From NCBI GenBank assembly GCA_026197095.1, contig JAPHTF010000158.1, positions 1 to 35,177 of the forward strand: a stretch of DNA of 35,177 nt. Reading direction: 5' to 3'. This DNA comes from Gammaproteobacteria bacterium. Lineage in GTDB: Bacteria; Pseudomonadota; Gammaproteobacteria; UBA6429; Thiohalophilaceae. Shown here piece by piece: positions 1-21,425 of the stretch (its first letter is position 1; the number at the start of each line of letters is the position of its first letter). Under the pieces are notes generated by a model. That model was not told where the DNA came from, ran no database searches, and saw only the letters and a program-made list of their open reading frames with translations. A program made the translations under genes and the position numbers.

Positions 1-2851
1 CTAAAGAATCAATAACGATAGTTTGAGGTTCGTTTAGTGTAAAAGTAAAATCATGTATCTCATGCGATCCTGCTAATTGGCCATTTATTACATCATTAAA
101 AAGTAGCGAACCTGGTATTGAATTGCTTTGATTTAAACTAAAGTTAATATTTTCAGTTCCTGAACGATAATAGAAACCTTCATTCAGCAGGGTGTATGTC
201 CCATCTAAAGTTGTTGTAAAAGAATGGTTTGAATTATTTGCATATTTTGTATAAATCGTTTTACCAAATGGATCTACGACCCGCCAATATGAATTAGTTG
301 TATTGTTAGGAATAGTAAAAACATCGCCCGACTTAGCATCAAAACGCCAGCCTATTGTTTCATTAGCAGGTGTTCTGTCGGCAGAAATTTCCTGGTTAAG
401 AGTAATCTGGGCCAGGTCTGCTGTATTAATCAGGCGAAATGCGTACACACCGCTTCCATATGCAGCATTTATAGTAAGTGCGTATTCACCTTTAACCAAT
501 GCCAAGGTCGGATCTGAATATTGTGCATCACTGGTATATAACCTTTTATTATTCACCTCCTGACCTAAAGGACCTACCATGCTCCAGGTAAACGAAGAGT
601 TATTAGTCTGTGTATCAAATATCAATACACTATTACTGTCTAAGGTAAAACGATATACCTGACTTTCGCCGGTGGCTGACAGGCTTCCTGCAATTACATC
701 ATTTAGGACAAGTGCTTCACCCGCAGGCAATTGTGGTTGTGGTATGTTGCTGACGTAATTGAATTGAAATTCATAGTTCACAGAAGCGGTATTAACTAAG
801 GAACCTTCGATAAGTAAACTATAAGTCCCGGCAGTATCAAGCACAAAAGACGGCTTATCCAGGGCGAGACTATTTGAACCTAATACATCCCGACCATATG
901 CGTCAATCAATCGCCAGTTAGCCGATCCCCCTGTAATAGCGATACTATCAAAACTTATTTGATCGCCGGCTTCTACAGTTAAAGCATATAGATTTGTTGA
1001 ATTACCTGGTGTAAGCGTACCGGATATCGCTGTATCAGTTGCAATAGCAGGTGCAACTGAGGAATCAAGTAATTGAAAAGAATATGCACCCGTTGCTGCT
1101 CCTGTACCATGAACTTTTAGCTGATACGTACCTGCAGGCAAATTAAAAAAAGCTGAACCATCTACAGCATCACTACTTGTAAAAAGTTGGTTTATAACTT
1201 CTGTTCCGCGTGGCCCGTGAAGTGACCAGGTAATATCTGTAGTTTCTGTCAGGCTATCAAACACCAACCTGCCTGGTATAGCCAAATCAAACTCATAAAC
1301 AGTAGTCTGGCCTGAAACAGTAATAGCATCTGATATTAGTTCATTAAAATCTAGCGTACTTATTAGATCAGGAACACGATTTAATGCGAATTCGTAAGTA
1401 AGCGTTAAAGCAGGATCGTTTGATTTATCTCCTTCGAGTACTAACCAATAGTTACCCGTAATATCAGCGGTGAAAGCAGGGACATCTGAATTCAGCGTAT
1501 TACTCGCAATGACATGATCACCATAAGGATCAATCAAGCGCCAACCAACCGTTCCATTATCAACGGAGCGACCGTCCATAAATAATTTATCACCTTCCTG
1601 AAGTGACACATTGAATAATGCCATCCCACGTGCATTATCAAGAGCAGCGTTTGTTACAGTGCTTAATGGTAAATTTGTGCTGGATGCCGCAGTCAAAAGA
1701 CGAAAAGCAGCCTCGCCAGTAGTTGCCAAAGTCGCATCTATAGTCAACCTATAGTCACCAGGCACTAGCCACTGCCACTCACTGAAACCAAAGCCAGACG
1801 TATCAGTCATCAACCGTGATGCAACTGTTTGCCCGTCTGGACCTTCTAGTGACCATGAAAACTGATCTGAATCTGTTAAACCTTCAAACAGTACAGGCGT
1901 ATTGTTGCTTAAACTAAACGTGTAGTGTGATACTTTGCCAGCATGATCAATATTTGCTGTAGTAACTGTATCAAGCGCTAATGGTAAAGTCGTATCTTCT
2001 ACGGGGCTGAGATTAAATGAATATGATACGGGTGAAGTATTATTATTATCGCCCTCAACCAGGAGTAAATATACCCCTGTTCTTTGTACTGTAAATGCTT
2101 CAGCATCACTGGAAATATTAGTAACCCCTATTTCCTGGGTTCCATAAGGATCTATCAAACGCCAGTAGGCATTGCCACCTGAAGTGTTATTAATATCGTA
2201 AAAAAACTTATCACCCGTAGTAGCTGAAAAACTATATACCGCTGTTTTTCTACCGCTATCTAGTGTTGCTGTAGCTTCTGTTCCAGGTGTCAGGACGGAT
2301 GCTGTGCTGGCATCTATAACTCTTAATTCATAATCGCCAGTTGCGTCTTTATAGCCATCAACTGTTAATTCATACTTACCTGAAATCAATTCAAATGCTG
2401 ACCCTAAAGATGAGCTACCACCAGTATTTTGAAAATTGCTTTCGGTTATTTCGCCTGTAGGCCCTGAAAGACGCCAGTTAATATCATTTCGATCAGTCAG
2501 GCTATCAAATACAACTCGCGTTGTAGCTTCCAAAGTAAATTCAAAATGATCTTGTTCACCCGGGGAATCGATAGAACCGGCAACAGTTAATGCTGCAGGG
2601 TTTACATCAGCCGATAATAAAACACGAGGCTCCATAGGCTCAAAACGAATTTTCCCGGTACTTATATACTTTTGGGTATTCTGGCCAGAAGATTTAACGG
2701 ATGCTGTATTTGTATTTAAATACTTTTTGAATGTTGAACGTACAGATTGGCTAAGTGTCGATAAGGCAGGCAGTGTATTTTTGCTATTGCTGCCTTCCTG
2801 AAAATTATCGTTTTGTTGAGATTTATTTTTTTTATCAAAAAATGTAGCCAT
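1..2851 (-). CDS. Giant LEPR-XLL-type repeat protein, N-terminal 950 residues (truncated by window edge)
   Basis: This open frame starts at ATG 2851-2849 behind a GGGAGG ribosome site (2858-2863, 6-base spacer) and stays open to base 1, so the C-terminus is missing. Residues 1-70 are polar, rich in Ser, Asn and Lys, with no hydrophobic signal peptide. Residues 70-82 read FEPMEPRVLLSAD, matching the LEPR-XLL motif found near the N-terminus of very long bacterial surface proteins. From about residue 88 the protein is a series of roughly 95-105 residue beta-rich domains resembling bacterial pre-peptidase C-terminal (PPC) domains. They alternate strictly: type A contains W-S/R-L-x-G-P-x-G (near 126, 333, 542, 757) and type B contains W-R-L-I-D-P-Y-G or a close variant (near 230, 437, 646, 856). 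A fifth A repeat begins near 920. It is probably secreted or surface-bound. Divergence from the export-like operon at 3424-9454 suggests that it is that operon's substrate; this is inference. Confidence 0.9.
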   Translation of the reverse strand, partial: MATFFDKKNKSQQNDNFQEGSNSKNTLPALSTLSQSVRSTFKKYLNTNTASVKSSGQNTQKYISTGKIRFEPMEPRVLLSADVNPAALTVAGSIDSPGEQDHFEFTLEATTRVVFDSLTDRNDINWRLSGPTGEITESNFQNTGGSSSLGSAFELISGKYELTVDGYKDATGDYELRVIDASTASVLTPGTEATATLDSGRKTAVYSFSATTGDKFFYDINNTSGGNAYWRLIDPYGTQEIGVTNISSDAEAFTVQRTGVYLLLVEGDNNNTSPVSYSFNLSPVEDTTLPLALDTVTTANIDHAGKVSHYTFSLSNNTPVLFEGLTDSDQFSWSLEGPDGQTVASRLMTDTSGFGFSEWQWLVPGDYRLTIDATLATTGEAAFRLLTAASSTNLPLSTVTNAALDNARGMALFNVSLQEGDKLFMDGRSVDNGTVGWRLIDPYGDHVIASNTLNSDVPAFTADITGNYWLVLEGDKSNDPALTLTYEFALNRVPDLISTLDFNELISDAITVSGQTTVYEFDLAIPGRLVFDSLTETTDITWSLHGPRGTEVINQLFTSSDAVDGSAFFNLPAGTYQLKVHGTGAATGAYSFQLLDSSVAPAIATDTAISGTLTPGNSTNLYALTVEAGDQISFDSIAITGGSANWRLIDAYGRDVLGSNSLALDKPSFVLDTAGTYSLLIEGSLVNTASVNYEFQFNYVSNIPQPQLPAGEALVLNDVIAGSLSATGESQVYRFTLDSNSVLIFDTQTNNSSFTWSMVGPLGQEVNNKRLYTSDAQYSDPTLALVKGEYALTINAAYGSGVYAFRLINTADLAQITLNQEISADRTPANETIGWRFDAKSGDVFTIPNNTTNSYWRVVDPFGKTIYTKYANNSNHSFTTTLDGTYTLLNEGFYYRSGTENINFSLNQSNSIPGSLLFNDVINGQLAGSHEIHDFTFTLNEPQTIVIDSL

Positions 2852-3423: not shown

Positions 3424-5313
3424 ATGGCCATCATGATGCCCCCACCCTCTGAAAACACAGAAGAAAAGCCGTCCTCATGGTCACTTGAGAATGAGGCTGA
3501 CATCTGGCGCAAATTTGTTACTCCAGAAAATGATGGCGAATTTTATCAAACATGGCTTGCCCTTTTATGCCGTCAGTTACCTGGTATAAAAGCTGGGGCT
3601 GTCTTACTGCGAAGTGAAGAAGCTAATACATTCAAGCCAGTTGCAATCTGGCCCGAAGTTTCGCGTGATCTAACCTTTCTTACTGAAGTCGCAGAACGCG
3701 CCATAACAGAAATGCGTGGTGTTGCACATCGTCCAGATAATTCTCCAAACTCTAATGTCCAGGTTTCATACCCTATAAAAATTTTTCAACAAATACTCGG
3801 TTCAGTTGTACTAGAAGCTGAAGCACGTTCAGATACTGAAATCCAATCCCTGCTAAGGCAATTACATTGGGGAATTGCCTGGATATACGAGTTAGCTCAT
3901 AGACACAACAACGCAGCAAGCGAAGCAAAAATTCAACGTATTGGTAGTGTGATGGAAGTGATAGCCACATCATTACGCCAAAACCGCCTGCAGCAAACGT
4001 TATTTGATTTAACGAATCATATCGCTCGTCAACTTGATTGCTCAAGAGTAGCTATAGGGCTTGTAAATAAAAATTCATTACGCCTTAGCGCACTTTCTAA
4101 TGCTGCATGGTTTGAGAAAAAAACAAATATAGTAAAACTCTATGTCTCTGCAATGGAAGAGACTTATGATCAGCTTGATTCTTTTTCATATTCATCTAAC
4201 AAATCAAATAAAGAAGATCAAAATAAGGTTATTGATTATTCAGCACATGGGCGCCTTGCCAATGAAAGTGGTGCAGAACATATTTATTCTGTACCGATGC
4301 TGCTCGGTGCAGACTGTGTCGCAATTCTTATGTTGGAGCGAGATGAAGATAGTAACTTTCACGAACAAGATAAACTATGGCTTGATGCACTAATAAGCCT
4401 GCTTCCAGCAATCATCCAGGAGAAGCGCCAGGCTGAACGAAGTTTTTATTCCCATATTCGTGATGAGTTTCAAAAAATTTCAAAAAAATTATTAGGACCA
4501 AAATATTTAATCTGGAAATTCAGTTCTTCTTTGTTGCTGATATTCTTCCTGACCTTAACTTTTGTGCATATTGATTACCGTGTTTCAGCTAAAACCATGA
4601 TAGAAGGTCAGATTCAGCGTGCAATAGTTGTTCCTTTCGAAGGCTTTGTTGCATCAAGTAATGTCAGAGCCGGCGATCTAGTTAAGCAAAAACAGGTACT
4701 CGTTACATTAGATGATAATGATCTCAAGTTGGACCTGGCTAAATGGAAAAGTGAATTAGAGCAACATAATCGCAAACTCCGCGAAGCCATGGCAAAGCAT
4801 GATTTATCTGAATACCAGGTACTAAACGCCAAACAACAACAGGCACGAGCACAACTTAACCTTGCAAAAGAAAAATTATCGCGAACAGAAATTACTGCAC
4901 CATTTGATGGCGTAGTAATTTCAGGAGACCTAAGCCAGCTTATTGGCTCACCTGTTGAACAAGGTAAAAAGCTATTCGAAATTGCACCACTGGATTCCTA
5001 TCGAATAATTTTACAAACTGATGAGCGTGACATACGCCATATCCAGGTTGGACAAAATGGTAAACTGGTCATGCCTGGCCTCGGCGAGGATCCAATTCCT
5101 TTCGAAGTCATAAGAGTCACTCCTATTGCAATAGCGCAGGACGGACAAAATTTCTTTCGAGTTGAAGCACTTGTAAAAAATGCTAAACCACAGTTACGCC
5201 CTGGTATGGAAGGGGTAGGTAAAATAGTTATAGGAGAACGCCGCATATGGTGGGTTCTAACACATAAATTTACCGATTGGTTGCGACTTTCAATGTGGAA
5301 ATGGTTGCCATAG
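3424..5313 (+). CDS. GAF-GAF-transmembrane-HlyD-type periplasmic adaptor
   Basis: A 629-residue protein. Residues about 20-160 and 169-345 look like two GAF-type domains (the second is clearer, with a typical long entry helix). One membrane segment lies at about 362-385. The periplasmic part has the HlyD/RND-adaptor layout: first half of a lipoyl-like barrel-sandwich (about 400-440, VPFEGFV...AGDLVKQKQVL), a coiled-coil hairpin (about 440-495), the second barrel half (ITAPFDGVVISGD...GSPVEQGKKLFEIA), then a beta-barrel domain. Coordinates use the outermost ATG. ATG 3433 is more likely the true start, because GGGAG at 3419-3423 then gets a 9-base spacer. The next gene begins 9 bases downstream. 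Canonical HlyD proteins lack cytoplasmic GAF domains, so this one may couple a cytoplasmic signal to assembly of the exporter. That role is inference; the architecture is seen. Confidence 0.88.
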   Translation: MAIMMPPPSENTEEKPSSWSLENEADIWRKFVTPENDGEFYQTWLALLCRQLPGIKAGAVLLRSEEANTFKPVAIWPEVSRDLTFLTEVAERAITEMRGVAHRPDNSPNSNVQVSYPIKIFQQILGSVVLEAEARSDTEIQSLLRQLHWGIAWIYELAHRHNNAASEAKIQRIGSVMEVIATSLRQNRLQQTLFDLTNHIARQLDCSRVAIGLVNKNSLRLSALSNAAWFEKKTNIVKLYVSAMEETYDQLDSFSYSSNKSNKEDQNKVIDYSAHGRLANESGAEHIYSVPMLLGADCVAILMLERDEDSNFHEQDKLWLDALISLLPAIIQEKRQAERSFYSHIRDEFQKISKKLLGPKYLIWKFSSSLLLIFFLTLTFVHIDYRVSAKTMIEGQIQRAIVVPFEGFVASSNVRAGDLVKQKQVLVTLDDNDLKLDLAKWKSELEQHNRKLREAMAKHDLSEYQVLNAKQQQARAQLNLAKEKLSRTEITAPFDGVVISGDLSQLIGSPVEQGKKLFEIAPLDSYRIILQTDERDIRHIQVGQNGKLVMPGLGEDPIPFEVIRVTPIAIAQDGQNFFRVEALVKNAKPQLRPGMEGVGKIVIGERRIWWVLTHKFTDWLRLSMWKWLP

Positions 5314-5322
5314 GTACATAGT

Positions 5323-7470
5323 GTGAAAAGGAAAATCTTTAGCCAGTCTTGGCATAGTGTTGCACCTCTGAAGCCAAAGCTGTTATCTCAGGCCAGAATA
5401 TTTCGTCACAAGTACCGTGGCAAACTCTGGTACATCATTCAGGATCCAAGTGGAGGTCGATACCACCGGTTAACTCCCGCTGCACATAACTTACTGCAAA
5501 AAATGAATGGTAAAACAACTGTTCAAAAGCTATGGGATGATACGTGTCAGTTAAATGAGGATGAGTTACCTACCCAGGATGAAATTGTAGAATTATTAAT
5601 GCAACTACATTCCAATGACCTGCTATCTACTGATGTAACGCCTGATGCGGCAGAACTATTTCAGCGTTTCCGTAAACGCCGCAGTCAGAAATGGAAGCAG
5701 GCTCTTATGAATCCAATGGGATTAAAAATTCCTTTACTAGATCCTGATATCTTTCTCACTAAATGCTTAAGATACTTCTCATGGCTGTTTGACAAACGCG
5801 GTGCAATCTTATGGTTTGCGCTTGTAATGCCGGCCCTCTTTCTCGCTGGCCAACACTGGAATGAGCTAACTGCCAACCTGTCTGATCAGGTGTTAGCAGC
5901 AGAGAACCTTCTGTTACTAATGATAGTGTATGCAATAATCAAGGCTACTCATGAAGTAGGTCATGGACTGGCGACTAAAGTCTGGGGTGGCACAGTACAT
6001 GAGATGGGTATTATGCTTCTTGTATTTGCACCAATCCCATATGTTGATGCTTCCTCAGCATCTTCTTTCCAATCAAAACATCAACGTGCCATTGTTGCAG
6101 CAGCAGGTATTCTCGTTGAAGTAGCTCTTGCTGCTATTGCTATGTATGTTTGGTTATTAGTAGAACCTGGACTTATACGCGCTATTGCTTTTGATGTCAT
6201 GTTTGTTGCAGGCATATCTACAGTACTTATTAATGGTAATCCATTACTACGATTTGATGGGTATTATATTTTTACTGATCTGATAGAAATGCCTAACATG
6301 GCTCAGAGAGGTCAGCGTTACCTTACATATCTAAGTGATCGCTATCTTTTTGGCGCCAAGGAAACTGAATCCCCAGATGAAACCACAATAGAAAAACGCT
6401 GGTTATTTTTCTATACAATAGCTTCGTGGTTATATCGATTTGTATTAATGATCACTATCGCAATGTTTGTTGCAGGTCAATTCTTTATATTTGGTGTCTT
6501 ACTGGCCCTCTGGTCTATAGGAATGTTCTTAGGGAAACCGCTCTGGAAAAGCATAAAACATCTCAAAGAAAGTCCTACATTGCAACGCAATCGTCCACGT
6601 GCAATTAGAACATCTATCGCCTTACTTGCGCTAGTCATTATCTGTATAAGCCTGGTACCTATGCCGTTACGTACTACTGCTGAAGGAGTTATCTGGTTAT
6701 CGGAAAATGCTCTTATCCGAACAGGAACAGCAGGTTTTTTTGATAAATGGCTGGTAGAACCTGGAACACATGTTGAAAAAAACACTCCTCTATTCATAAT
6801 GCATAATTCAGAATTAAAAACTGAATATGCATCAGCCAAGTCAAGGTTAGCCGAAGCTACTGCACGCTATAAAAAAGTACAATTTAGCAGTCCTTCAACA
6901 GCAGAAGTCATATTGCAACAGCTTCAACACGAACAACTAATAGTAAACAGACTAATAGAACGAAATAAAAAACTTGTTATATACAGTAAAACTTCAGGAG
7001 TATTGAGTGCTCTAAAAGCACAAGATATGCATGGAAAATATTTTAAACAAGGTGAGCTTCTTGCCTATATTCTAGATAATGATAACTTTATAGTCCGAGC
7101 AGCTGTAGAACAAACTGATATCGAACTTGTTCAATCAAAAGTCATAAACACACAAATCCGCCTGGCTGATGATTTAAAAAATACTTACCCAAGTAAAATA
7201 CTATATGAAGTTCCCAGCGGTAGCGATCAACTTCCTACTGCTGCACTCAGTCCTAACGGTGGAGGACAAATAGCAGTTGATCCGACAGATTCCAGTGGTC
7301 TTAAACCTCTGCAGAGAGTATTTTTATTTGATCTTACTCTCCCAAATAATTCTGCCTCACATACCTTTGGCGGACGAGTCTATGTCCGATTTGAACATGA
7401 ATTTGAACCTTTATTCCATCAATGGTACAGGCGTATACGACAACTATTCTTGAGTCATTTCTATGTCTAG
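5323..7470 (+). CDS. PqqD-like / M50 site-2 metalloprotease / HlyD-like fusion membrane protein
   Basis: A 715-residue protein with a GTG start 9 bases after the previous stop. Residues about 20-115 resemble the PqqD/peptide-chaperone winged-helix fold (WYIIQDPSGGRYHRLTP). The multi-pass M50 core follows, with the zinc motif HEVGH at 210-214 and the third-ligand region GNPLLRFDGYY with Asp312. Hydrophobic segments lie near 160-180, 195-215, 228-241, 253-280, 288-306, 364-410 and 430-448. After the last one, residues about 450-600 have an HlyD-like lipoyl/coiled-coil pattern (AEGVIWLSENALIRTGTAG...VEPGTHVEKNTPLF...SGVLSALKAQDMHGKYFKQGELLAYI). M50 enzymes cut within membranes, and PqqD domains bind peptides. 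The protein may therefore recognise, process or conduct the exported substrate. All catalytic residues appear intact. The stop overlaps the start of the SecA-like gene by 8 bases. Confidence 0.88.
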   Translation: MKRKIFSQSWHSVAPLKPKLLSQARIFRHKYRGKLWYIIQDPSGGRYHRLTPAAHNLLQKMNGKTTVQKLWDDTCQLNEDELPTQDEIVELLMQLHSNDLLSTDVTPDAAELFQRFRKRRSQKWKQALMNPMGLKIPLLDPDIFLTKCLRYFSWLFDKRGAILWFALVMPALFLAGQHWNELTANLSDQVLAAENLLLLMIVYAIIKATHEVGHGLATKVWGGTVHEMGIMLLVFAPIPYVDASSASSFQSKHQRAIVAAAGILVEVALAAIAMYVWLLVEPGLIRAIAFDVMFVAGISTVLINGNPLLRFDGYYIFTDLIEMPNMAQRGQRYLTYLSDRYLFGAKETESPDETTIEKRWLFFYTIASWLYRFVLMITIAMFVAGQFFIFGVLLALWSIGMFLGKPLWKSIKHLKESPTLQRNRPRAIRTSIALLALVIICISLVPMPLRTTAEGVIWLSENALIRTGTAGFFDKWLVEPGTHVEKNTPLFIMHNSELKTEYASAKSRLAEATARYKKVQFSSPSTAEVILQQLQHEQLIVNRLIERNKKLVIYSKTSGVLSALKAQDMHGKYFKQGELLAYILDNDNFIVRAAVEQTDIELVQSKVINTQIRLADDLKNTYPSKILYEVPSGSDQLPTAALSPNGGGQIAVDPTDSSGLKPLQRVFLFDLTLPNNSASHTFGGRVYVRFEHEFEPLFHQWYRRIRQLFLSHFYV

Positions 7471-9454
7471 AACAGCAGTGTTGCTACATGGTCGCTCTAT
7501 TGAAGTATCTGATGGTGTATATCAGGAGAGAAAGGATAAACCTGAACCATTACTTGAAGAGTTACTACGTTCATGGATGGCACGACTTCCAGGATTAAAA
7601 TCCAGAAAGAAGCGTATACGTAAACTTATAGAACAAACAAATGCCTTCGAACCAGAGATACAACAACTAAATTCTGATGACCTGATAAAAAATCTTGCCA
7701 GCAACGCTGACTTAATGAGGCACCAGGGATTTAGTGACGATCTATTATCACGTAGTTTCGCAATCATTCGAGAGGCTTCTTTGAGAACACAGGGTTTACG
7801 TCATCATGATGTACAGTTGATTGGTGGGTGGGCGCTTTTACAAGGGACAATTGCAGAAATGCAAACTGGCGAAGGTAAAACTCTTGTGGCCACTCTTGCT
7901 GCATGTACTGCAGCATCTGCCGGTGTTTCAGTCCATGTTATAACAGTCAACGACTATCTATCAGAACGTGATGCAAACTATAACCGTAAACTTTATGAAT
8001 TTTTCAATCTTAGTGTCGGCATAATTCAACAAGGTATGTCACCCGCTGAAAGAAAAAAACAATACGGGTGTAATATTGTATATGTGTCTAATAAAGAAAT
8101 TGTTTTCGATTATTTAAAAGATAGAATAGCGACTTCTAATGCGACTTCTGCACATTATCGACTGCGTCATCTTTACCGCCCCCATCAAACACCTCAAGTA
8201 TTATTGCAAGGATTACATATTGCAATTGTAGATGAAGCTGACAGTGTATTTGTTGATGAAGCTCGAACACCACTAATAATTTCTGAATCTGTTCCTGATG
8301 AAAATGGTGAAGAATTATATGGCACTGCCCTGGATATAGCTTCAAGTCTGGAAAACGGAAAACACTTTGAAATATCAAATGATCGAAGTATATGGGTAAA
8401 GCCTGAAGGAGAAATATTTGCAAAAGAATTATGCTCTGATTTAACTGGTGTTTGGCAGTCATCTCTTTGGAGGAATGAACTACTAGAAAAAGCTTTGTCA
8501 GCAATATGGTGCTTCCAACGTGATCAACATTATCTTGTAGCAGATAATAAAATTCAGATAATTGATGAATTCACTGGTCGACTTATGCCAGATCGATCAT
8601 GGGAACATGGCCTGCATCAAATGATTGAATTTAAAGAAGGTTGTGAAATTACAGGGCAGCGCAAAACATTATCACGTATTACCTATCAACAATTTTTTCG
8701 ACGCTACCTCCTCTTATGCGGAATGACAGGTACTGCTTCGGAAATCATCCCTGAATTACGGCGAATATATGATCTGGAAGTCATAAAAATTCCAACACAC
8801 CAGCCAAGCCGGAGAAAACATATTGGAAGTCAAATATGGCTTACATCTGAACAACGTTGGCAGGCAGTTGCCGAGCGCGCTGCTGAACTTAGCATCGCTG
8901 GCCGTGCCGTTCTGCTTGGAACACGATCAGTCGATGCTTCTGAAAGCCTGAGCAGGTTTTTAACAAAACAAAATGTCGAGCATACAGTATTGAATGCGCG
9001 ACAGGATCAAGAAGAGGCATCAGTTATTGCTCAAGCCGGGCAACCAGGACACATCACCGTTGCAACAAATATGGCAGGGCGGGGCACTGATATCAGTTTA
9101 TCAAATGAACTGGCTGACAACCTCGGCCTTCATGTGATACTCACAGAATTTCATGAATCACCCCGTATCGATCGACAGCTAATTGGTCGCTGTGCTCGTC
9201 AAGGTCAACCTGGTTCTTTTGAAGCATGTGTTAGCCTGGAAGATGATATATTCAAAGATCATGCAAAAGCGCTACTACATTTTACAAATACCATACCTTT
9301 TTTTAAATCAACTATCCCACAGTGGTATTTAGCACTAATGGTTAGATACGCTCAAACCAAAGCTGAACGACATAATGCAAAAATGCGAATAGCCACACTT
9401 AAGAATGATCGTAAACTGCAACGATTGTTAGCTTTCTCTGGCTCATCAATTTAA
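7463..9454 (+). CDS. SecA-like translocase ATPase paralogue, C-terminally short
   Basis: A 663-residue SecA-family ATPase; housekeeping SecA is about 900. Visible motifs: Walker A MQTGEGKT (133-140), HVITVNDYLSERDANY, Walker B DEAD (257-260; canonical SecA has DEVD) followed by DEARTPLIISE, the preprotein-binding region (about 225-375), GLHQMIEFKEG, GMTGTASE, ATNMAGRGTDISL, and GRCARQGQPGSFEACVSLEDD (canonical GRSGRQGDPGSSR...SLED). After this last motif only about 64 residues remain, covering the start of the helical scaffold (AQTKAERHNAKMR). The helical wing, two-helix finger region and zinc-binding C-terminal linker are absent, and NBD2 lacks its usual variable insertion. Translation is coupled to the M50 gene by an ATGTCTAG overlap. 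ATP-driven export of the divergent giant protein is inference from context. Confidence 0.9.
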   Translation: MSRTAVLLHGRSIEVSDGVYQERKDKPEPLLEELLRSWMARLPGLKSRKKRIRKLIEQTNAFEPEIQQLNSDDLIKNLASNADLMRHQGFSDDLLSRSFAIIREASLRTQGLRHHDVQLIGGWALLQGTIAEMQTGEGKTLVATLAACTAASAGVSVHVITVNDYLSERDANYNRKLYEFFNLSVGIIQQGMSPAERKKQYGCNIVYVSNKEIVFDYLKDRIATSNATSAHYRLRHLYRPHQTPQVLLQGLHIAIVDEADSVFVDEARTPLIISESVPDENGEELYGTALDIASSLENGKHFEISNDRSIWVKPEGEIFAKELCSDLTGVWQSSLWRNELLEKALSAIWCFQRDQHYLVADNKIQIIDEFTGRLMPDRSWEHGLHQMIEFKEGCEITGQRKTLSRITYQQFFRRYLLLCGMTGTASEIIPELRRIYDLEVIKIPTHQPSRRKHIGSQIWLTSEQRWQAVAERAAELSIAGRAVLLGTRSVDASESLSRFLTKQNVEHTVLNARQDQEEASVIAQAGQPGHITVATNMAGRGTDISLSNELADNLGLHVILTEFHESPRIDRQLIGRCARQGQPGSFEACVSLEDDIFKDHAKALLHFTNTIPFFKSTIPQWYLALMVRYAQTKAERHNAKMRIATLKNDRKLQRLLAFSGSSI

Positions 9455-9646: not shown

Positions 9647-11191
9647 TTATGCTAGCTGATCATCAGCAACATGATACTTTGGATCTTCCATCAGGTTAAC
9701 TTCAACCAGGTCGCCGGCTTTTTCCAGCAACTCAACACACTCAGGACTTAAATGACGTAAGTGTAATGTTTTACCGGCTTTAATATATTTCTCAGCCAGG
9801 TTATCAATCGCTTCGATAGCGGAATGATCCGCGACACGTGAATTCTGAAACTCAATAATAACTTCCTGTGGATCTTCTTCCGGATTAAACAGCTCCATAA
9901 AGCTTTTAACTGAACCAAAAAATAAAGGTCCATTTAGTTCATAAATACGGATACCATATTTATCATCATAACCTTTCACATTGATGTGTGAGGCATGTTC
10001 CCATGCAAAGAATAATGCTGAAACAATAACACCGACAATTACCGCGAATGCCAGGTCAGTTGCAACAGTAACGCCTGAAACAAGAATTAAAACAAAGGCA
10101 TCTTTTTTAGGAATCTTGCCCATAATACGGAAGCTTGACCATTCAAAGGTACCGAGTACGACCATGAACATTACTCCGATTAATGCTGCCATCGGAATTT
10201 GCTCAATCAGGCTTGAAGCGAACAAAATAAAAATTAACAGGAAGATTGCCGCAGAAATACCCGATAAACGTTGACGGCCTCCCGAGTTAATATTAATTAT
10301 ACTCTGGCCAATCATGGCACAACCACCCATGCCACCAAAGAATCCGGTTGCCGTGTTTGCAATACCCTGACCGACACATTCACGGTTACCGCGACCACGT
10401 GTATTCGTCAGGTCATCAATTAGTGAAAGTGTTAATAACGATTCAATCAAACCCACTGCCGCCAGAATAATCGAGTAAGGTAAAATTATAGATAAGGTTT
10501 CCCAGTTAAATGGTACTTCAGGAATATTAAATGTTGGCAAAGCACCTTTAATCGAAGCAAGATCACCTACCTGGTTAGTATTGACATCAAAACCAATCAC
10601 CATAAATGAAACAACAAGTATTGCGGCCAATGCAGCAGGAAAAGCTCCAGTAATTTTTGGTAGGAAGTGCATAATTGCCATGGTTAAAGCAACCAGTCCA
10701 AGCAAGATATATAAAGGTGAACCAACCATCCATTGCATTGAGCCATCAGGTAACTTCACCTGGAAATGTTGTAACTGGGCAAGAAATATAACAATCGCTA
10801 AGCCATTAACAAAACCCAGCATGACAGGATGTGGCACGATACGAATATATTTGCCGAGTCGTAATACACCTGCCAGTATCTGAATCAAACCGGTTAACAC
10901 AACGGCCGCGAATAAATATTCAACGCCATGCTGAGCCACTAACGCGACCATGACTACGGCCATTGCTCCGGTAGCACCCGAAATCATACCGGGACGACCA
11001 CCAAAAATTGCCGCTAATAAACCCACCATGAATGCTGCATAAAGACCAACTAAGGGCTCAACACCCGCAACAAAAGCAAATGCTACCGCCTCAGGAACAA
11101 GGGCCAATGCAACGGTTAAACCTGAAAGAATTTCATTTTGAAAACATGTGCGACTGGCACAACCCAGCTGGAACATAGAATAACTCCGCAA
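9647..11191 (-). CDS. SulP-family inorganic anion transporter with STAS domain
   Basis: A 514-residue protein. The first ~400 residues form the multi-pass SulP transport domain, with the typical opening [35 protein letters not shown] shortened here to its start, and the [19 protein letters not shown] segment near residues 60-85. Residues about 405-505 are a cytoplasmic STAS domain. The compact length and the [12 protein letters not shown] pattern are closer to BicA-like bicarbonate or sulfate SulP carriers than to long eukaryotic-type members. Substrate cannot be decided from sequence alone: sulfate, bicarbonate and other anions are all possible. It is the last gene before the bidirectional terminator, and a 70-base gap separates it from the upstream methyltransferase gene. 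Confidence 0.9.
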
Positions 11192-11261
11192 ATTAACGAC
11201 TTTTCGTAAAAAGGGCGAATAATAGCAGAATTAAAGGACTAAAACTTTAAGCCGCGTGAAC

Positions 11262-11903
11262 TTATTTAATGTAAATCTGGCTTAGCCAGATGAAAGTTTG
11301 CTTTTGAAAAACTTTTTTAAAACCAGCATCGGTTATCCAACGCTCGATATCATCAGGGTTATGCACAAAAGCGCGAAAATCGGAGCCACTGAGCTTTAGA
11401 AATATCGCCATAATCTCAATCGCAACTTTAGTGAACCAGCGATCGCGGGGATAGGTTAAAGCATAAACCCGTTTCGTTTTTGCAGTAGAGTGATTAATTA
11501 ACAATTCAGCATGAGGATAACAGCAGACGACTTTATCCAGAACCGTGACTTCAGCCGGCTCAACCTGATCTAAGAGTTCAATAAAATCACCCTGAATATA
11601 TTCAGTGCGATCAATGAGATTTTTTTCCTTTGCCCAGTCTTCAGCTTCTTTAAGCATATCAGGCGCAAGATCAATTCCGATGGCAGACTTCGCCCCTTGC
11701 TCTAATAAAGTTTGATGTAAGTAACCCACACCACTGCCTACTTCCAGCAATGTTGCGTCTTTATAACCCGCTTGCTCCAGGCCTTCTATTAACTGGAGTT
11801 GCGAAGGCTCAAAACCCTTTTTAGAAAATCGACGACGATAGCTGCGCGCAAAAAATGAAAACAGACGTCCGCCAGATTTTGAATGTGGGCAACAGCAACT
11901 CAT
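11262..11903 (-). CDS. Class I SAM-dependent methyltransferase
   Basis: A 213-residue protein. SAM-binding motif I is LLEVGSGVGYLHQTLLEQGA (about 57-76), followed by IGIDLAPDMLKEAEDWA (motif II acidic residue) and YIQGDFIELL. The N-terminus has a Cys cluster (MSCCCPHSK). The C-terminal part, with ALTYPRDRWFTKVAIE and a terminal WLSQIYIK strand, resembles the arrangement in magnesium-protoporphyrin O-methyltransferase (BchM/ChlM-like) and related small-molecule methyltransferases. No other tetrapyrrole or bacteriochlorophyll gene lies nearby, so the substrate is unknown. It lies between the metal-handling genes and the SulP gene on the same strand. Confidence 0.85.
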   Translation of the reverse strand: MSCCCPHSKSGGRLFSFFARSYRRRFSKKGFEPSQLQLIEGLEQAGYKDATLLEVGSGVGYLHQTLLEQGAKSAIGIDLAPDMLKEAEDWAKEKNLIDRTEYIQGDFIELLDQVEPAEVTVLDKVVCCYPHAELLINHSTAKTKRVYALTYPRDRWFTKVAIEIMAIFLKLSGSDFRAFVHNPDDIERWITDAGFKKVFQKQTFIWLSQIYIK

Positions 11904-11976
11904 TGATTAATCCCTTTAAATCTCATACTGACTATAATCGCAGCCAGAAGCCGACGTTAACTAATTATCATCAGTC

Positions 11977-12327
11977 TCACAACTTAATTCCGAAGTGATT
12001 CAAAATTAATATCATTATCCAATAACTCAATATGGTTACAAATATGGAAATTGAAATACTTAAATAAAAGTTAATATTCTGTTTAAGCAGTATTGGTAAC
12101 GAAATAAATAATGTTAAAGAAGGCAATACAAGCCAAAAAACACTCGTTGATAATGTGCTTACTTTCGTTATATTTTTTGTGTCTATATAAAGCCATATCA
12201 TAGCAAGTACTGAAACAAGAGGTATAGAAGCCAAAATTGCACCTATAAAAGTACTTCGTTTAGATATTTCTGATATAGCTACAATCAACATTGTAGTAAT
12301 TATAATTTTTAGTGTGTAATAAGCCAT
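11977..12327 (-). CDS. DUF3147-like small inner-membrane protein
   Basis: A 116-residue, almost wholly hydrophobic protein with about four membrane segments (residues ~3-20, 28-47, 60-82, 88-110). The pattern ISKRSTFIGAILASIPLVS followed by STSVFWLVLPSLTLF fits the DUF3147 (GlpM-like) family of small inner-membrane proteins, whose function is not established. It is the most downstream gene of the run 14441-11977, 88 bases after the DUF6488-like gene, and may be co-transcribed with it. The family call rests on pattern recognition only. Confidence 0.72.
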   Translation of the reverse strand: MAYYTLKIIITTMLIVAISEISKRSTFIGAILASIPLVSVLAMIWLYIDTKNITKVSTLSTSVFWLVLPSLTLFISLPILLKQNINFYLSISISIFVTILSYWIMILILNHFGIKL

Positions 12328-12415
12328 AGTACCTAACCTTACAATATATATCTCATACCTACCATGAATGTAATCTCAAGATAGATATGAGGCAACACCA
12401 TTTATCTAAATCAAT

Positions 12416-12760
12416 TTATTTTCCCGTATAGTTAGCAGCAATATAATCACCACTTAATGTTAAAAAGATATAAAGTTTACGTTTTTTAGCATCAGTCACT
12501 TTTTCATTCTCAAAGCTAACCACCCATTCTTGTTTGCCATTAAACATTTTTTTCTCAGATGAGCTAACAGTAGTAGATTCCCAACTCTTATCAAGTGTCT
12601 TTTGCTTAATAAAGTTCGCAACAATTTTAGTTGCTATTGAACTTGCATTTTCTTGATTAACTGGCTCATGTGAATGCCCATGATCATGCCCACTCCCAGC
12701 TATTGCTATCATTGAAAACAAACCCAGGGTTAAGCCAAGTAATAGTGTTTTTAGTTTCAT
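12416..12760 (-). CDS. DUF6488-like secreted protein with His-rich N-terminus
   Basis: A 114-residue protein with a clear signal peptide (MKLKTLLLGLTLGLFSMIAIAGS). The mature protein starts with a GHDHGHSHEP metal-binding-like segment. The rest is a small alpha/beta domain (about 40-114) with the pattern KTLDKSWESTTVSSSEKK, EWVVSFENEKVTD, KLYIFLTLSGDYIAANYTGK, as in DUF6488-type periplasmic proteins. The gene starts 16 bases after the HupE/UreJ-type permease gene and is certainly in the same operon. The His tract and the permease partner suggest periplasmic metal binding or delivery; that is inference. Confidence 0.8.
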   Translation of the reverse strand: MKLKTLLLGLTLGLFSMIAIAGSGHDHGHSHEPVNQENASSIATKIVANFIKQKTLDKSWESTTVSSSEKKMFNGKQEWVVSFENEKVTDAKKRKLYIFLTLSGDYIAANYTGK

Positions 12761-12776
12761 TGTAAATCTCCTAAAA

Positions 12777-13916
12777 TTAAAAAATAGAATCGTGTTGTTT
12801 AGAGCTGCTTTCTTTCTCCGGTTCGGTTTTTTCTTTCTTTGTTAAATCAAGACGCTGATAATCACCGTTAATTTTCAAAACAACATCAACAGTAGATAAC
12901 GTATTATTTTTCCAGTACCAACCATGAGTACCTTCAAATGATGTTGTTAAATTACCGCTTGACTTACTTTCGGTGCTTTTTTTGAAACTTTTGAAATATC
13001 CTGTTTTATCGTCTTTTGGCTCACCATGAAAATCATAAAAGAGTTTTGTTCCATTGGTTTTCCATGAATATTCAAATGTAGTGTTTTTGGGAAAAAGCAA
13101 TTTATACTCTTTATCACCTCTAGCTGGGATGGTTATGGTAATAACGTCCTTCCAGTTAGCATGATTAGTAACTTCAGTTTTTTGTATTGCCTGTGCAGGT
13201 GCTGATTCAGCAACAAACTCTTCTGCATTAGAAACATGTTCATAACCATGCATTTGCATTAAAAAGAGATACCCGCCTGCAATAATTAAAAAACTGTTTG
13301 CAGCTTTGGTAAAACTCTTAAATGTATGGCTTTGACGAAATCCTGCAATAAGCAGCAACATCACCGCCAATGCTAAAATTTGACCTAGTTCGATACCAAC
13401 ATTAAATGAGATAATATTCATTAATAAATTATCTTCACTTAATGGTAATTGTTGTAACCGTGTTGATAATCCAAGTCCATGTATTAAACCTAAGCTAAAA
13501 ATCATGGCCATCATATTAGGCGATTTCACGTTCAGGTATTTTTCAAAGCCTTTCAGGTTTGCAAAAGCGATATAACAGACGCTCAATGCAATAACCGCAT
13601 CAATTAAAAAATAATTAACCTGAATCGCATTAAATGTTGCGTAAATAAGCGTGATACTGTGACCTACAGTAAATGCTGTAATGTATTTAACAATATCTTT
13701 GAACCTGGTTAGAAAAAAAATAATGCCAAAGATAAATGCTAAATGGTCATAACCAGACAACATATGAGTAGCACCAATCCAGATATAACGTAGATTTCCA
13801 CCCTCAATAATCGTTTGTTTCTCGGCTTCTGACATTCCATGCCCAAAAGCCTGACTTGCTATAAGCAATGTAAATATCACGATCAACCATCGTGATTCTT
13901 TAAATATAGATATCAT
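12777..13916 (-). CDS. HupE/UreJ-family permease with an extra C-terminal soluble domain
   Basis: A 379-residue protein. After an N-terminal signal/TM segment ending near SQAFGHG, residues about 45-225 are the HupE/UreJ core with the characteristic HMLSGYDH motif (HX5DH, residues 51-58), AFTVGHSITL and LIHGLGLS, histidine motifs linked to nickel or cobalt transport in this family. Usual members stop near 200 residues. Here about 150 more follow, including ITIPARGDKEYKLLFPK and EGTHGWYWKN, a beta-sandwich-like pattern seen in bacterial transmembrane-anchor or GOLD-like proteins, then a charged tail. The flanking His-rich secreted protein and His-rich DUF6488-like protein support a role in metal uptake or homeostasis. 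The metal is unknown; no urease or hydrogenase gene is in the window. Confidence 0.86.
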   Translation of the reverse strand: MISIFKESRWLIVIFTLLIASQAFGHGMSEAEKQTIIEGGNLRYIWIGATHMLSGYDHLAFIFGIIFFLTRFKDIVKYITAFTVGHSITLIYATFNAIQVNYFLIDAVIALSVCYIAFANLKGFEKYLNVKSPNMMAMIFSLGLIHGLGLSTRLQQLPLSEDNLLMNIISFNVGIELGQILALAVMLLLIAGFRQSHTFKSFTKAANSFLIIAGGYLFLMQMHGYEHVSNAEEFVAESAPAQAIQKTEVTNHANWKDVITITIPARGDKEYKLLFPKNTTFEYSWKTNGTKLFYDFHGEPKDDKTGYFKSFKKSTESKSSGNLTTSFEGTHGWYWKNNTLSTVDVVLKINGDYQRLDLTKKEKTEPEKESSSKQHDSIF

Positions 13917-13985
13917 AACGTCCTCAATAAAAAGTTTTTAGATGAATAAGTTCACCTAAAGTAAATTGGATTTAACTAATGGAGA

Positions 13986-14441
13986 TTATGAAAATTTAGG
14001 AGGCGCGCGAAGGCTTATGGTGGAGTAATCAATATATCGTCGTTTGGAGTTACTGAGTCCTGATGATTCAATACTAATTATGTGATGAGTAAGATTTAAC
14101 TGGAGATTTACAGAAGTTAAGACAACAGGTTGATCATCAATATTATTCCAGCTCTGCACATTGCAATCGTTACCAAGCTCTACAAGCTTAACGTCCTGCT
14201 TATGTACCTGATGATTTGAATCTGGAACATGATCATTATGGGTCAATGATTGATGTGCATGACCTTCAATATTATGCTGATGATGGCTTCCATCATGGTT
14301 ATGATGTTCTGCAAGATGGATATGAGCTGATGACCACTGCATTGAAAGCAATGCTGTAACCAAAACAAAAAACATTACCTTATTAAGTCGGAATTTAGTT
14401 ATGTAGGCAAGCTCGTTCATATTAGCAATAAGTATATCCAC
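13986..14441 (-). CDS. His-rich exported protein, possibly DUF2946-like
   Basis: A 151-residue protein. A hydrophobic segment (about 22-36, VMFFVLVTALLSMQW) acts as signal peptide or anchor. Residues 40-80 hold fourteen of the sixteen histidines in runs such as HHNHDGSHHQH. The C-terminus ends with SLRAPPKFS, recalling the RAPP or RGPP ending of DUF2946-type small metal-linked proteins; this assignment is tentative. The start is uncertain, since Met8 and Met23 are alternatives. It is the first gene of the run that continues with the HupE/UreJ-type permease, 69 bases downstream, so it is probably a periplasmic metal buffer or sensor-type protein. Confidence 0.75.
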   Translation of the reverse strand: MDILIANMNELAYITKFRLNKVMFFVLVTALLSMQWSSAHIHLAEHHNHDGSHHQHNIEGHAHQSLTHNDHVPDSNHQVHKQDVKLVELGNDCNVQSWNNIDDQPVVLTSVNLQLNLTHHIISIESSGLSNSKRRYIDYSTISLRAPPKFS

Positions 14442-14519
14442 TCAATTTAGTAAAAACTAGTATGTTCTATATATCTTTTGTGGAGGGTAACCGTCAGCTT
14501 TGAATTCGTTAACAGAAAT

Positions 14520-14957
14520 TCAGTCTATTACTTTAAGTTTAATTTCTGCTCCATCCGGAAGATCTTTTATTTGTTTGCCTAAATCTCCGGACAGCCTGAT
14601 GATTTCACTAAAAGGAGCAGATTGAATATTGTTTCCAGAATATTCACCATCCAGAATGCCTGGAATTACCATATAATATTTATATCCTTCTTTTAATTCC
14701 CCAAGCATTTTTTTTGCTTCATCAACCATTACGGTCATATTCCAGTCAATAAGAAAATCATTGTCCTGAATCTGGTTGTTATAATCTTCAATAGACTTTG
14801 CTATAACCTCACAATAAACATCTTCTGGACATAAACGCCAAAAATTATCTTCTGCATCTTTAAGGATAAGATTACCAAAATCATTCTCAGCAACAACTTC
14901 AATTGGCTGTATACCTGACCATCCCCAGTGCTCTTTAACTACTTCAAGAATATTCAC
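14520..14957 (-). CDS. Tdi1/DUF1851-type protein
   Basis: A 145-residue acidic soluble protein with no signal peptide. The N-terminal part (HWGWSGIQPIEVVAENDFGN, NFWRLCPEDVYCEVIA) and C-terminal part (GYKYYMVIPGILDGEYSGNN, SGDLGKQIKDLPDGA) match the pattern of DUF1851 proteins, a family that includes the C-terminal domain of the T6SS immunity protein Tdi1. No toxin or T6SS gene is near, so this may be an orphan immunity-like protein or a family member with another role. It lies 17 bases downstream of the YeeE/YedE gene on the same strand and is likely co-transcribed with it. Confidence 0.72.
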   Translation of the reverse strand: MNILEVVKEHWGWSGIQPIEVVAENDFGNLILKDAEDNFWRLCPEDVYCEVIAKSIEDYNNQIQDNDFLIDWNMTVMVDEAKKMLGELKEGYKYYMVIPGILDGEYSGNNIQSAPFSEIIRLSGDLGKQIKDLPDGAEIKLKVID

Positions 14958-14974
14958 TTCATAAGCATCCAGCG

Positions 14975-15994
14975 TTAGCTATTTTTTTCCATCCATTTCA
15001 CTGAAAGTGCAGTACCAGCAAACATACCCGCAAAAGCCAACATTGATTCAAATGATAAGGTAGATATACCCGACAAGCCCTGACCGACATTGCAGCCATA
15101 AGCCATAATGCCACCGATACCCATTAAGCTTCCGCCCAGGATAGCAAACTTAAAGGCTTCTTTTTTAGGCGGCTCCAACTTAAAGCGGCCCGTTGCCAGG
15201 GTAAACAGTAAAACAGCTACGGTAATACCAATAACAAATGAAATCGCAAATGACAAAGCTGGAATTTTTGACGAAATTAAAATATAGCCAAATCGTGCTA
15301 ATGGCCCTGATACTGTTATCGCTGAAGGCTTAGTGGGATTAAAATCATCTTGCGCCAATACACCGGTGATATACCAGCCACTTACCACCAAAGCACCAAT
15401 GGCCGCACCCGCTATCACCATCCATTTAGCCGCGGGGTTCCAGTTTTTAATCATATAAGCTGCCATAATAATGACAATAACAACTGCAGGTATCCATTGC
15501 GGCAGACCTAAAATAGTTGCAATCGAAGCGTCACCCGTTAAATTAATGGCTGTACTTTGTGTAATGCCTAAGCGAATTTTTTCTAAAAAGCCAAACTGTG
15601 CTGAAGCAGCAAATAACATAAAAAATAATAACGCGATAACCGCATGCAAGCTGCCTTCTGCTGATCGCACTAATGTGCGTGTTGCACATCCTCCCGCCAT
15701 GACTCCACCAATACCAAATATCAGGCCACCTAAACTTGCACCAAACCAGTCAAGTTGTGAATTACGATATGCAGAATCTGCAATAGCCACTGTCTCGGTA
15801 AACTCAAGGAGTTGCGTGCCTGTTATGGCAACAATTAATGCCGCCATGAAGGCAAGTACCTGACGATTATCTTTTATAAGTAATAGATTACCTGTCGCAG
15901 CAACCAGGCAAAGGCGATGATATTGAACAAGTACGCCAAAAATAGCCCCTACTGTTAAACCACCACCAACTAACCACAGATTCAGCTCACCCAT
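14975..15994 (-). CDS. YeeE/YedE-family (TsuA-like) thiosulfate transporter
   Basis: A 339-residue membrane protein with two internally related halves. Conserved cysteines are Cys29 (YHRLCLVAA), Cys103 (AGGCATRTLVRSAEG) and Cys301 (AYGCNVGQGLSG). These correspond in context to the three cysteines of the thiosulfate importer TsuA (YeeE), which pass thiosulfate through the membrane by transient S-H interactions. The start has a good AGAGG ribosome site 7 bases upstream. Import of thiosulfate or a related sulfur compound into the cytoplasm is likely from the family. The window also contains a rhodanese and a TtcA-type thiolase, but neither is in the same operon. Confidence 0.88.
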   Translation of the reverse strand: MGELNLWLVGGGLTVGAIFGVLVQYHRLCLVAATGNLLLIKDNRQVLAFMAALIVAITGTQLLEFTETVAIADSAYRNSQLDWFGASLGGLIFGIGGVMAGGCATRTLVRSAEGSLHAVIALLFFMLFAASAQFGFLEKIRLGITQSTAINLTGDASIATILGLPQWIPAVVIVIIMAAYMIKNWNPAAKWMVIAGAAIGALVVSGWYITGVLAQDDFNPTKPSAITVSGPLARFGYILISSKIPALSFAISFVIGITVAVLLFTLATGRFKLEPPKKEAFKFAILGGSLMGIGGIMAYGCNVGQGLSGISTLSFESMLAFAGMFAGTALSVKWMEKNS

Positions 15995-16100
15995 TACGTA
16001 CCTCTTATTAAAACAAAATAAATATTAATTCAAAAAAATATTCTAACTAATGCAACTACGCTTTAATAGATTAAAAATAAGATAAGTCACGATTAATATT

Positions 16101-16883
16101 TTATGCAATTTTTCGTTGGCTCAGGTAAATGAACAAAGTACCTATTAAAATAAAGGGGAGACTTAACCATTGCCCCATATTGAGACTTAATATTGGTTCA
16201 AATGATTCCTGGGGAATTTTAATAAACTCAATCAAAAATCGTGAACCAAAAATAACGATCATTAATATTCCCATCATAAAACCTGGTTTTAATTTATCAC
16301 CGTATTTTCTGTACAGGAAAAATAATGAAATAAATAATAATAAATAAACCAGCGCTTCATAAAGTTGCGCGGGATGGCGAGGTAAATCGTCTACGCGTGA
16401 GAACACAATCGCCCAGGGCACTGTTGTTGGAGTACCTATAATTTCTGAATTAAAAAAATTACCTGAGCGAATAAAAAATGATCCTAATGAAATCGGTAAT
16501 GTCATGCGATCCAGTATCCAATAAAAACTGACATCTGCTGTTTGTCTTGCATAAACATACATCGCGATTAACATCCCTACTGTGCCGCCATGACTGGCTA
16601 AACCGCCTTCCCAAACTTTAATGATTTCAAAAGGATTTAACAGGTAGTAGACAGGATCATAAAATAAAACATGACCTAAACGTGCGCCAAGCAAAGCCCC
16701 TAACACCATGTACACAAATATCTTATCTAATGAGTTCAGTGGCTTTTTTTCACGAATAAATATCCAGCGCATAATCTGGAAACCTAAAAAAAACCCCGTG
16801 GCAAATAGCAATCCGTACCAGGCAAGGCTGAAACTGCCAAATGAAACTAACACCGGACTTGTATTCCATTCAAAATAGTTCAA
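16101..16883 (-). CDS. lgt: Prolipoprotein diacylglyceryl transferase
   Basis: A 260-residue inner-membrane enzyme that transfers diacylglycerol from phosphatidylglycerol to the lipobox cysteine of prolipoproteins. Visible family motifs: GARLGHVLFYDP (66-77), ASHGG with His98, the Lgt signature FIRSGNFFNSEIIG with Arg139 and Asn142, RHPAQLYEA (169-177) and SRFLIEF with Arg215, which correspond to essential His103, Arg143 and Arg239 of the E. coli enzyme. Length is slightly under the usual 270-290. It lies between the YeeE/YedE gene and the J-domain gene on the same strand, with gaps of 106 and 44 bases. Confidence 0.95.
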   Translation of the reverse strand: MNYFEWNTSPVLVSFGSFSLAWYGLLFATGFFLGFQIMRWIFIREKKPLNSLDKIFVYMVLGALLGARLGHVLFYDPVYYLLNPFEIIKVWEGGLASHGGTVGMLIAMYVYARQTADVSFYWILDRMTLPISLGSFFIRSGNFFNSEIIGTPTTVPWAIVFSRVDDLPRHPAQLYEALVYLLLFISLFFLYRKYGDKLKPGFMMGILMIVIFGSRFLIEFIKIPQESFEPILSLNMGQWLSLPFILIGTLFIYLSQRKIA

Positions 16884-20700: not shown

Positions 20701-21425
20701 TTAAAGCCAAAACTAATCGGTTTAATATGACGTAAGGAATTCCAGAAAGCTTCGGGTGTTTGACCGGTAAGAATACGGCCACTTGCATCTGTAATGGTGC
20801 CGGAGATCATAACGGGCAGGACATTTCCGGTCTCTTCAAAGTATTCATCAATCGCAAAAAGTGCCGCTTTGGCATTCAAGGTATCAAAAATCGTTTCTAC
20901 TAAAATGATATCAATACCGCCTTCAATCAAACCTCTTAATGAATTGTCATAAGCAACGCGCAGTTGATCAAAGGTAACATCACGCGCACCAGGATTATTG
21001 ACATCTTTAGACATAGACGCGGTGACAGGCATTGGACCGAGAACACCGGCGACAAATCGTGGCTTGTCGACTGTCGCAAAGGCATCACATGCTTCACGTG
21101 CGACTTTGGCTGCTGCAACATTAAGCTCATATACCAATTCTTCGGCTTCCATACCGTAATCTGCCATACCGTAATGATTGGCATTAAAGGTATTGGTTTC
21201 AATAATATCGGCACCGGCTTCTAAATAAGCAGCATGAATTGCCTTGATAATCTGCGGCTGGGTAATGGAAAGTAAATCATTATTACCTTTTAGATCCGAG
21301 CTCCAATCTTTAAACCGTTCACCACGATAATCCGTTTCTTCGAGCTCATAGGTTTGAATCATCGTACCCATGGCACCATCTAGAATAAGAATGCGTTCTT
21401 TAAGAATTTGTTTAATATCAGTCAT
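17709..21425 (-). CDS. metH: Cobalamin-dependent methionine synthase
   Basis: A 1238-residue enzyme (E. coli MetH has 1227) that methylates homocysteine using methyl-tetrahydrofolate through methylcobalamin. All four modules are present. The homocysteine domain (1-325) has zinc ligands Cys243, Cys306 and Cys307 ([17 protein letters not shown]). The folate domain (about 350-640) contains [13 protein letters not shown]. The cap and B12 domains (about 650-890) have the DVHDIG motif with axial His755. The C-terminal SAM-binding reactivation domain has [15 protein letters not shown] and ends in [18 protein letters not shown]. No frameshift was seen. A cobalamin riboswitch was looked for in the 147-base upstream gap and not found, but palindromes are present there (21457-21490). 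The flavodoxin or reductase partner is not in this window. Confidence 0.98.

Follow-up and report, generated by a model that had tools for sequence, protein, structure and literature searches.

An N-terminal LEPR-XLL motif probably directs giant bacterial proteins to a SecA-containing, type-I-like export cassette without an ABC transporter

What does a short conserved motif do near the start of a giant bacterial protein, and which machinery might read it? The question is raised by the window, the whole 35,177-nucleotide stretch of gammaproteobacterial DNA analyzed here, in which the 5′ part of a giant gene, with beta-sandwich repeats past the motif, occupies positions 1..2851 of the minus strand: about 950 codons from the ATG, then the window edge. 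Three genes, encoding a GAF-HlyD protein, a PqqD-M50-HlyD protein and a SecA homolog, diverge from it across 569 bp. The first 300 residues of the giant frame share 45–56% identity over the aligned parts with the starts of frames of 11,448–13,738 amino acids in Azonexus, Dyella, Luteibacter, Frateuria, Azotobacter and others, and the genome nearest by its M50 protein in our class sample (G077) has a homologous start too. Judged by homology, the window therefore most likely carries the 5′ end of such a giant gene, and the ‘very long protein’ of the sequence-only reading holds on these grounds, with the frame itself leaving the window after 951 codons. Frames with the same motif, here called LEPR, extend up to 14,112 amino acids; these giant sizes are open-frame lengths and, with many of the genes interrupted at a contig edge, should be taken as approximations or minimum values.

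Minus-strand positions 2632..2609 encode EPRVLLSA, residues 74–81 when the ATG at 2851 is residue 1, exactly where the motif had been placed on the translation. The core motif, FEPMEPRVLLSAD (2606..2644, minus strand; F70 to D82), comprises the match to the 24-position NCBIfam model NF012209 (‘LEPR-XLL’, LEPR-8K) and a 14-column conserved block. In a profile search of the window's own genome, this site scored 38 bits (E 5.5e-9, cut-off 17) and was the sole match in 3.12 Mb, which excludes a chance origin of the motif; a scan of the protein gave 32.9 bits. It is thus a full member of the family (> 17 bits), N-terminal and on a very long protein. The tail preceding it (2645..2851, minus strand) is variable and, from hydropathy and AlphaFold2, predicted to be disordered and to lack a signal peptide. 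Hydropathy over 15 residues peaks at 1.41 between the start and 60 residues past the motif, a span in which we saw no hydrophobic core of a Sec signal peptide, and an AlphaFold2 model built from an alignment of only nine sequences leaves residues 1–83 unstructured (pLDDT < 50) and begins a beta-sandwich at residue 87. The earlier description of some 70 polar residues without a signal peptide is therefore correct. A Sec signal peptide was ruled out as the route on the absence of that core and of an AxA-type site at LLSA-D, which, with leucine at −3, is a poor signal peptidase I site.

The alignment check proposed with the sequence-only reading came out in its favor: the motif is the only conserved part of homologous N-termini. 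Among 57 LEPR N-termini, 48 of them non-redundant, conservation in the non-redundant set is confined to about 14 columns around the motif, with flanks near background; the set was gathered with the LEPR model, so that conservation of the motif is partly built in, but its absence from the flanks is not. Nearly all columns between −4 and +9, counted around E-P-R, carry 1.4–4.5 bits of information; position −2 is unconstrained (0.9 bits), F or P is preferred at −6, and past +12 conservation is again near background. The tails before the motif are variable and mildly K/R-rich, with a positive net charge in 82%. Downstream, the proteins are unrelated, carrying PPC-like, cadherin or DUF-type repeats, and some of the giants have cadherin- or Ig-like repeats.

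On the other side of the divergent intergenic stretch, in which a repeat search found nothing notable, lies a recurrent gene set. The GAF-HlyD gene (3424..5313, plus strand), present in nearly all cassettes, encodes a cytosolic GAF-like part, one transmembrane stretch and an HlyD/RND-type barrel-sandwich. It is followed by a fusion of a PqqD/RRE-like domain, an M50 metalloprotease and an HlyD-like part (5323..7470, plus strand; domain scans, AlphaFold2 pLDDT 88), so that the neighboring protease and PqqD-like domain noticed earlier are real and reside in one protein. The third gene (7463..9454, plus strand) encodes a secondary SecA ATPase of 663 amino acids which, by domain profiles, is truncated past the nucleotide-binding domains. 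This arrangement, a SecA_DEAD protein beside M50-HlyD and GAF-HlyD proteins, is that of the secondary SecA_DEAD locus described, together with type I secretion proteins, by Kamneva, Poudel and Ward in 2015 (PMC4452313). As far as the passages covered here go, that locus has the same GAF-HlyD, M50-HlyD, SecA_DEAD and HlyD proteins, sometimes with an outer-membrane factor and without an ABC transporter; SecA was first proposed there as the ATPase and M50 as the pore, no substrate was named and the role was given as unknown. Planctomycetes, Verrucomicrobia and Chlorobi were the groups of its first description. The same passages make no mention of LEPR, giant cargo, the PqqD-like domain or the missing wing-scaffold.

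In 80 named loci retrieved with an M50 alignment, the genes follow the order GAF-HlyD, M50, SecA, small HlyD in all but a few cases, and some of the loci add a TolC. The named sources are Beta-, Gamma- and Alphaproteobacteria, Desulfobacterota, Nitrospira, Omnitrophota and Rokubacteria, many of them metagenome-assembled genomes in which stray contigs are possible. Most cassettes include the small HlyD; the best homolog in the window genome (43% identity) lies outside the window cassette, on contig C56, and a TolC candidate is likewise on a different contig from the cassette, a scatter that counts against the export reading. The 2015 account likewise has some locus members encoded elsewhere in the genome (PMC4452313, passages covered). 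A DUF3467 protein adjoins the small HlyD on contig C56 (L231, 1477–3389), a relative lies upstream of the GAF-HlyD gene in another locus (L060, 5078–5398), and the DUF3467 protein is a possible additional component. Elsewhere in the window, the minus-strand gene at 21573–22682 encodes a Protoglobin-GGDEF protein, probably an oxygen-sensing diguanylate cyclase, and is adjoined by a gene for B12-dependent methionine synthase (17709–21425).

Within the M50 fusion protein, the PF05402 stretch is encoded at 5395..5625 (plus strand, as are all parts of this gene); the family is detected in 21 of 66 homologs at E ≤ 0.001 and falls below its gathering score in the window protein (22.8 versus 23.4 bits). 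The AlphaFold2 model places beta-strands at residues 25–31, 34–41 and 46–50 and helices at 52–59, 67–77 and 85–97, and this modeled order is that of the beta3-alpha3 winged helix by which RREs are defined (PMC12710340). A structure search with the whole model mostly returned the HlyD part, with weaker rows for GdmN and Rv2067c over residues 12–114; no PqqD entry was among the matches listed, an uninformative result. PF02163 also scores below its cut-off in this protein (23.3 versus 27.2 bits), and over residues 37–396 the protein matches NF041824, a model of daptide metalloproteases, at E 3.6e-45 but with a score short of that model's cut-off. As in site-2 proteases, a metal-binding HExxH (H210, E211, H214; 5950..5964) is accompanied by a second active-site motif with an aspartate, NGNPLLRFD (N304–D312; 6232..6258), and both HExxH and N304, N306, P307, L308 and D312 are invariant in 66 of 66 homologs; proteolysis is a possible activity. 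Residues 445–701 (6655..7425) form a periplasmic HlyD/MacA-like adaptor, with matches to MacA and MexA folds (Foldseek E ~1e-10, VIA-align Z 13–14).

The truncated SecAs have SecA_DEAD, PP_bind and P-loop domains in 17 of 17 cases and SecA_SW in none; the housekeeping SecA of the window genome scores 250 bits for SecA_SW. Their profile ends at about residue 609 of SecA of known structure. The wing-scaffold part of SecA carries the two-helix finger that acts in SecY, and since wing and finger are missing, a SecY-independent role is possible for the predicted truncated protein. Truncated SecA was found in 17 of 21 cassette genomes versus 0 of 20 other genomes tested. It is missing from G052 and G094, but their M50 genes stop at contig ends; the cassettes of G206 and G190 seem truly to be without it, which counts against the export reading of the cassette and its motif. 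SecA homologs in three other loci (L179, 12127–13848; L189, 12182–14107; L193, 11802–13268) are very divergent, scoring 130–204 bits versus the usual ~800–900, and their sequences look as if they are changing or losing function.

Does the motif travel with this gene set? In a class sample of 274 genomes, NF012209 matches 19 and the M50 protein matches 21 at 360 bits or more, a cut set after the gap in scores was seen (next value, 247 bits). Fifteen genomes have both, six only M50, four only LEPR and 249 neither, so that LEPR occurs in 15 of 21 strong-M50 genomes versus 4 of 253 without (Fisher p 1e-16, with kinship of genomes ignored in this and the other p-values); with a threshold of ~135 bits instead, the counts are 17 of 33 versus 2 of 241. 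Equal conservation of the motif where the operon is lacking is thus not what we find, and two of the four motif-bearing genomes without a strong M50 have a weaker one (G177 and G224; 247 and 145 bits). In another of the four (G076), no M50 homolog was found, the LEPR match lies on a 3.1-kb contig and the assembly has 7% contamination. The last, the complete genome G213, has a LEPR-like giant, VESLEQRLLLSTS (L014, C57:21725-21784), several LssB-type ABC exporter matches and no M50 homolog, and is the clearest exception to the link between LEPR and M50. Among the six M50-only genomes, four have a sub-threshold variant motif on the cassette contig (EERRLFSGG, EPRLLFSAG, EPRLLLSGG, ERRILFSAD); in G264, G265 and G258 the variant LEPR protein shares a stretch with the cassette, and in G094 it shares a contig with the remainder of the M50 gene. 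A contig end cuts a repeat protein in G179, and the G008 assembly is 75% complete. The G008 cassette stands beside a 2195-residue ORF (L075, 37–6624, minus strand) whose N-terminus includes a hydrophobic stretch but not the LEPR motif.

A second draw, 48 genomes from several phyla picked by the M50 protein alone, yielded LEPR in 45, although setting this figure against 4 of 253 mixes taxa. LEPR was not found in G287 and G296, whose cassettes count against a role in export; in the third genome (G295), a repeat protein beside the cassette exits the locus. A Roseovarius-centered sample of 240 genomes held too few positives to bear on the link: LEPR genes and cassettes each number two in the center genome, and the one other, weak LEPR match is in a genome with a weak M50 homolog. 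The association is also physical. In a linkage set of 92 LEPR genes from 60 genomes, 53 genes are on an M50-bearing contig, and 48 of these 53 (42 of the 60 genomes) lie within 10 kb of the M50 gene, mostly on the same strand; many other LEPR genes sit away from the cassette within the same genome.

Of the cassette proteins, M50 appears to be the steadier partner of LEPR, since its homologs occur in 17 of the 19 LEPR genomes of the class and truncated SecA in 12. A variant motif, LEPR-MMFDGA or LEPR-LLFDGA, is present in L018 (G224) and in L081 (G162, 10691–16741), in the latter genome beside the M50 gene, and LEPRMMFDGA-type proteins pair with weaker M50 homologs, without the extra SecA (G162, G224, G119). 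An FDGA model matched 4 of 14 weaker-M50 genomes versus 0 of 19 without M50 (p 0.02), with two of the four having supplied the model and a fifth match (E 0.05, 24-residue frame) left out of the count. FDGA-motif proteins and weaker M50 homologs are possibly a sister system, and the presence of M50 without SecA weakly suggests M50, not SecA, as the partner that stays constant. We keep only as a lead a tie between loss of E(−3) in LEPR-FDGA and loss of arginine in the PqqD-like domain of the accompanying M50 proteins: Arg 28 or 49 persists in some, in a small number of proteins whose PqqD-like alignment is uncertain.

Because the motif recurs beside one secretion gene set across genomes, it is probably a tag that sends giants to this machine. 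Distribution over genomes and physical linkage strongly support a signal–machine pairing of LEPR-XLL with the cassette, and we consider it likely that giant surface or secreted proteins carry LEPR-XLL as their N-terminal signal for export by an ABC-less, SecA-powered, type-I-like cassette. The sequence-only reading, targeting or cleavage, divides accordingly: motif-only conservation, two samples and physical linkage lend good support to a dedicated machinery that recognizes the motif, the M50/PqqD protein being the candidate partner, whereas LLSAD as a processing site is unsupported, given leucine at −3 and conserved columns that fit docking or cleavage alike. Gene linkage alone does not distinguish an export signal from another N-terminal handle. 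Alternatively, the motif would be a cleaved leader, docked by the PqqD domain and cut by the M50 metalloprotease at or near LLSA-D, which would release or mature the protein. HExxH and NxNPLxxxD are invariant in all 66 homologs, so that processing of the tail may occur, the daptide metalloprotease match points the same way and the motif lies in a disordered tail immediately before the first folded domain. S2P-type M50 enzymes, however, cut in or beside membrane segments, of which the LEPR tail has none, and invariant catalytic residues may be structural; we regard cleavage as a possible but rather unlikely function of the motif.

Two further explanations turn on the other end of the protein and on conventional exporters. 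LssB (TIGR03375) is over cut-off in 4 of 19 LEPR-positive versus 46 of 255 LEPR-negative genomes (p 0.76) and, at the looser E ≤ 1e-100, in 11 of 19 versus 97 of 255 (p 0.09); at E ≤ 1e-100 it has no match in the window genome, and no ABC transporter is among the window ORFs scanned, although other ABC exporters may be encoded elsewhere in the genome. The giant's own C-terminus lies beyond the window; in 13 other LEPR proteins, all complete, the final 740 residues are free of RTX-like repeats, and the protein ends compared across genomes have no obvious signal in common. LEPR giants as ordinary type I substrates with an incidental motif are thus very improbable, even though RTX domains have been reported at the C-terminus of a LEPR protein from Vibrio (PMC10868602) and G213 combines a LEPR-like giant with type I exporters and no M50; with no LssB association and linkage to M50 instead, we rejected type I secretion as the route. 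The same observations weaken the idea of a retention or anchoring handle, comparable to the N-terminal retention module of LapA, with export of the giants left to some other route and the cassette serving to hold or release them at the envelope. Adhesin-like cadherin or Ig-like repeats and the abundance of periplasmic adaptors in the cassette would suit retention, but it is hard to see what a SecA-type ATPase would do there, and we judge this explanation improbable. Shared descent or chance, with LEPR left over from one giant family traveling with the cassette, draws on the tendency of neighboring genes to travel together and on the apparent horizontal mobility of the cassette (PMC4452313, passages covered), but downstream regions are unrelated while 14 columns stay fixed, and many LEPR genes are far from the cassette in the same genome; this explanation is hardly credible.

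How might the preferred export signal work? Carried in an unfolded and usually basic tail, LEPR would stand in for the signal peptide of the Sec route or the C-terminal signal of type I secretion. Docking of this segment at the inner membrane would fall to the PqqD/RRE-like domain of the M50 protein, just as RREs bind the leader peptides of RiPPs, and the truncated SecA, with motor and preprotein-binding domains but no wing-scaffold, would hydrolyze ATP to feed the chain into a conduit formed by the M50 membrane part. Three HlyD-type adaptors could connect this conduit to a TolC-type outer-membrane channel, and the M50 site may clip the tail. The motif itself, its linkage to the cassette genes, the domain composition and the conservation of the catalytic residues are observed; we infer the role of the signal in export and its reading by the PqqD-like domain, and likewise SecA as motor, TolC as exit and any cleavage. 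More tentatively, these parts could constitute a secretion system in its own right, widespread and devoted to giant proteins, with RRE-read LEPR, a SecYEG-free SecA motor, an M50 gate or pore and an HlyD/TolC conduit, an extension that we entertain without favoring it.

Each element has a counterpart in a known system. With type I secretion (HlyB-HlyD-TolC), the proposed route has in common adaptors, a TolC-type channel and one-step exit, but it has no ABC transporter, its signal is N-terminal and no C-terminal RTX-type signal is found near the ends. Accessory Sec also uses a second SecA (SecA2) with motor and preprotein-binding domains for special substrates; in contrast, the cassette SecA lacks SecA_SW in 17 of 17 cases and is partnered by M50 and HlyD proteins, not SecY2. 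With PqqD and other RREs (PF05402), the M50 protein has in common a winged helix, predicted to be of the beta3-alpha3 kind, on an enzyme that handles peptides and, in our reading of LEPR, a substrate marked by a short N-terminal recognition sequence, although the candidate partner is a protein of thousands of residues rather than a small peptide.

What is new here is the link between signal and machine. The open-access papers found to name LEPR-XLL give no tested function for it, and we propose the machine here; nor did we find a link from LEPR-XLL to the SecA_DEAD locus in open-access papers. Two orphans would thereby explain each other: a motif without a function on some of the largest bacterial proteins, and a secretion-like locus without a substrate. 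If true, this pairing would identify what is carried, and by which signal, along an ABC-less export route that occurs in Proteobacteria, Desulfobacterota, Nitrospirota, Omnitrophota and Rokubacteria; it would also make the exit of proteins of more than 10,000 residues testable by point mutations in a 14-residue motif.
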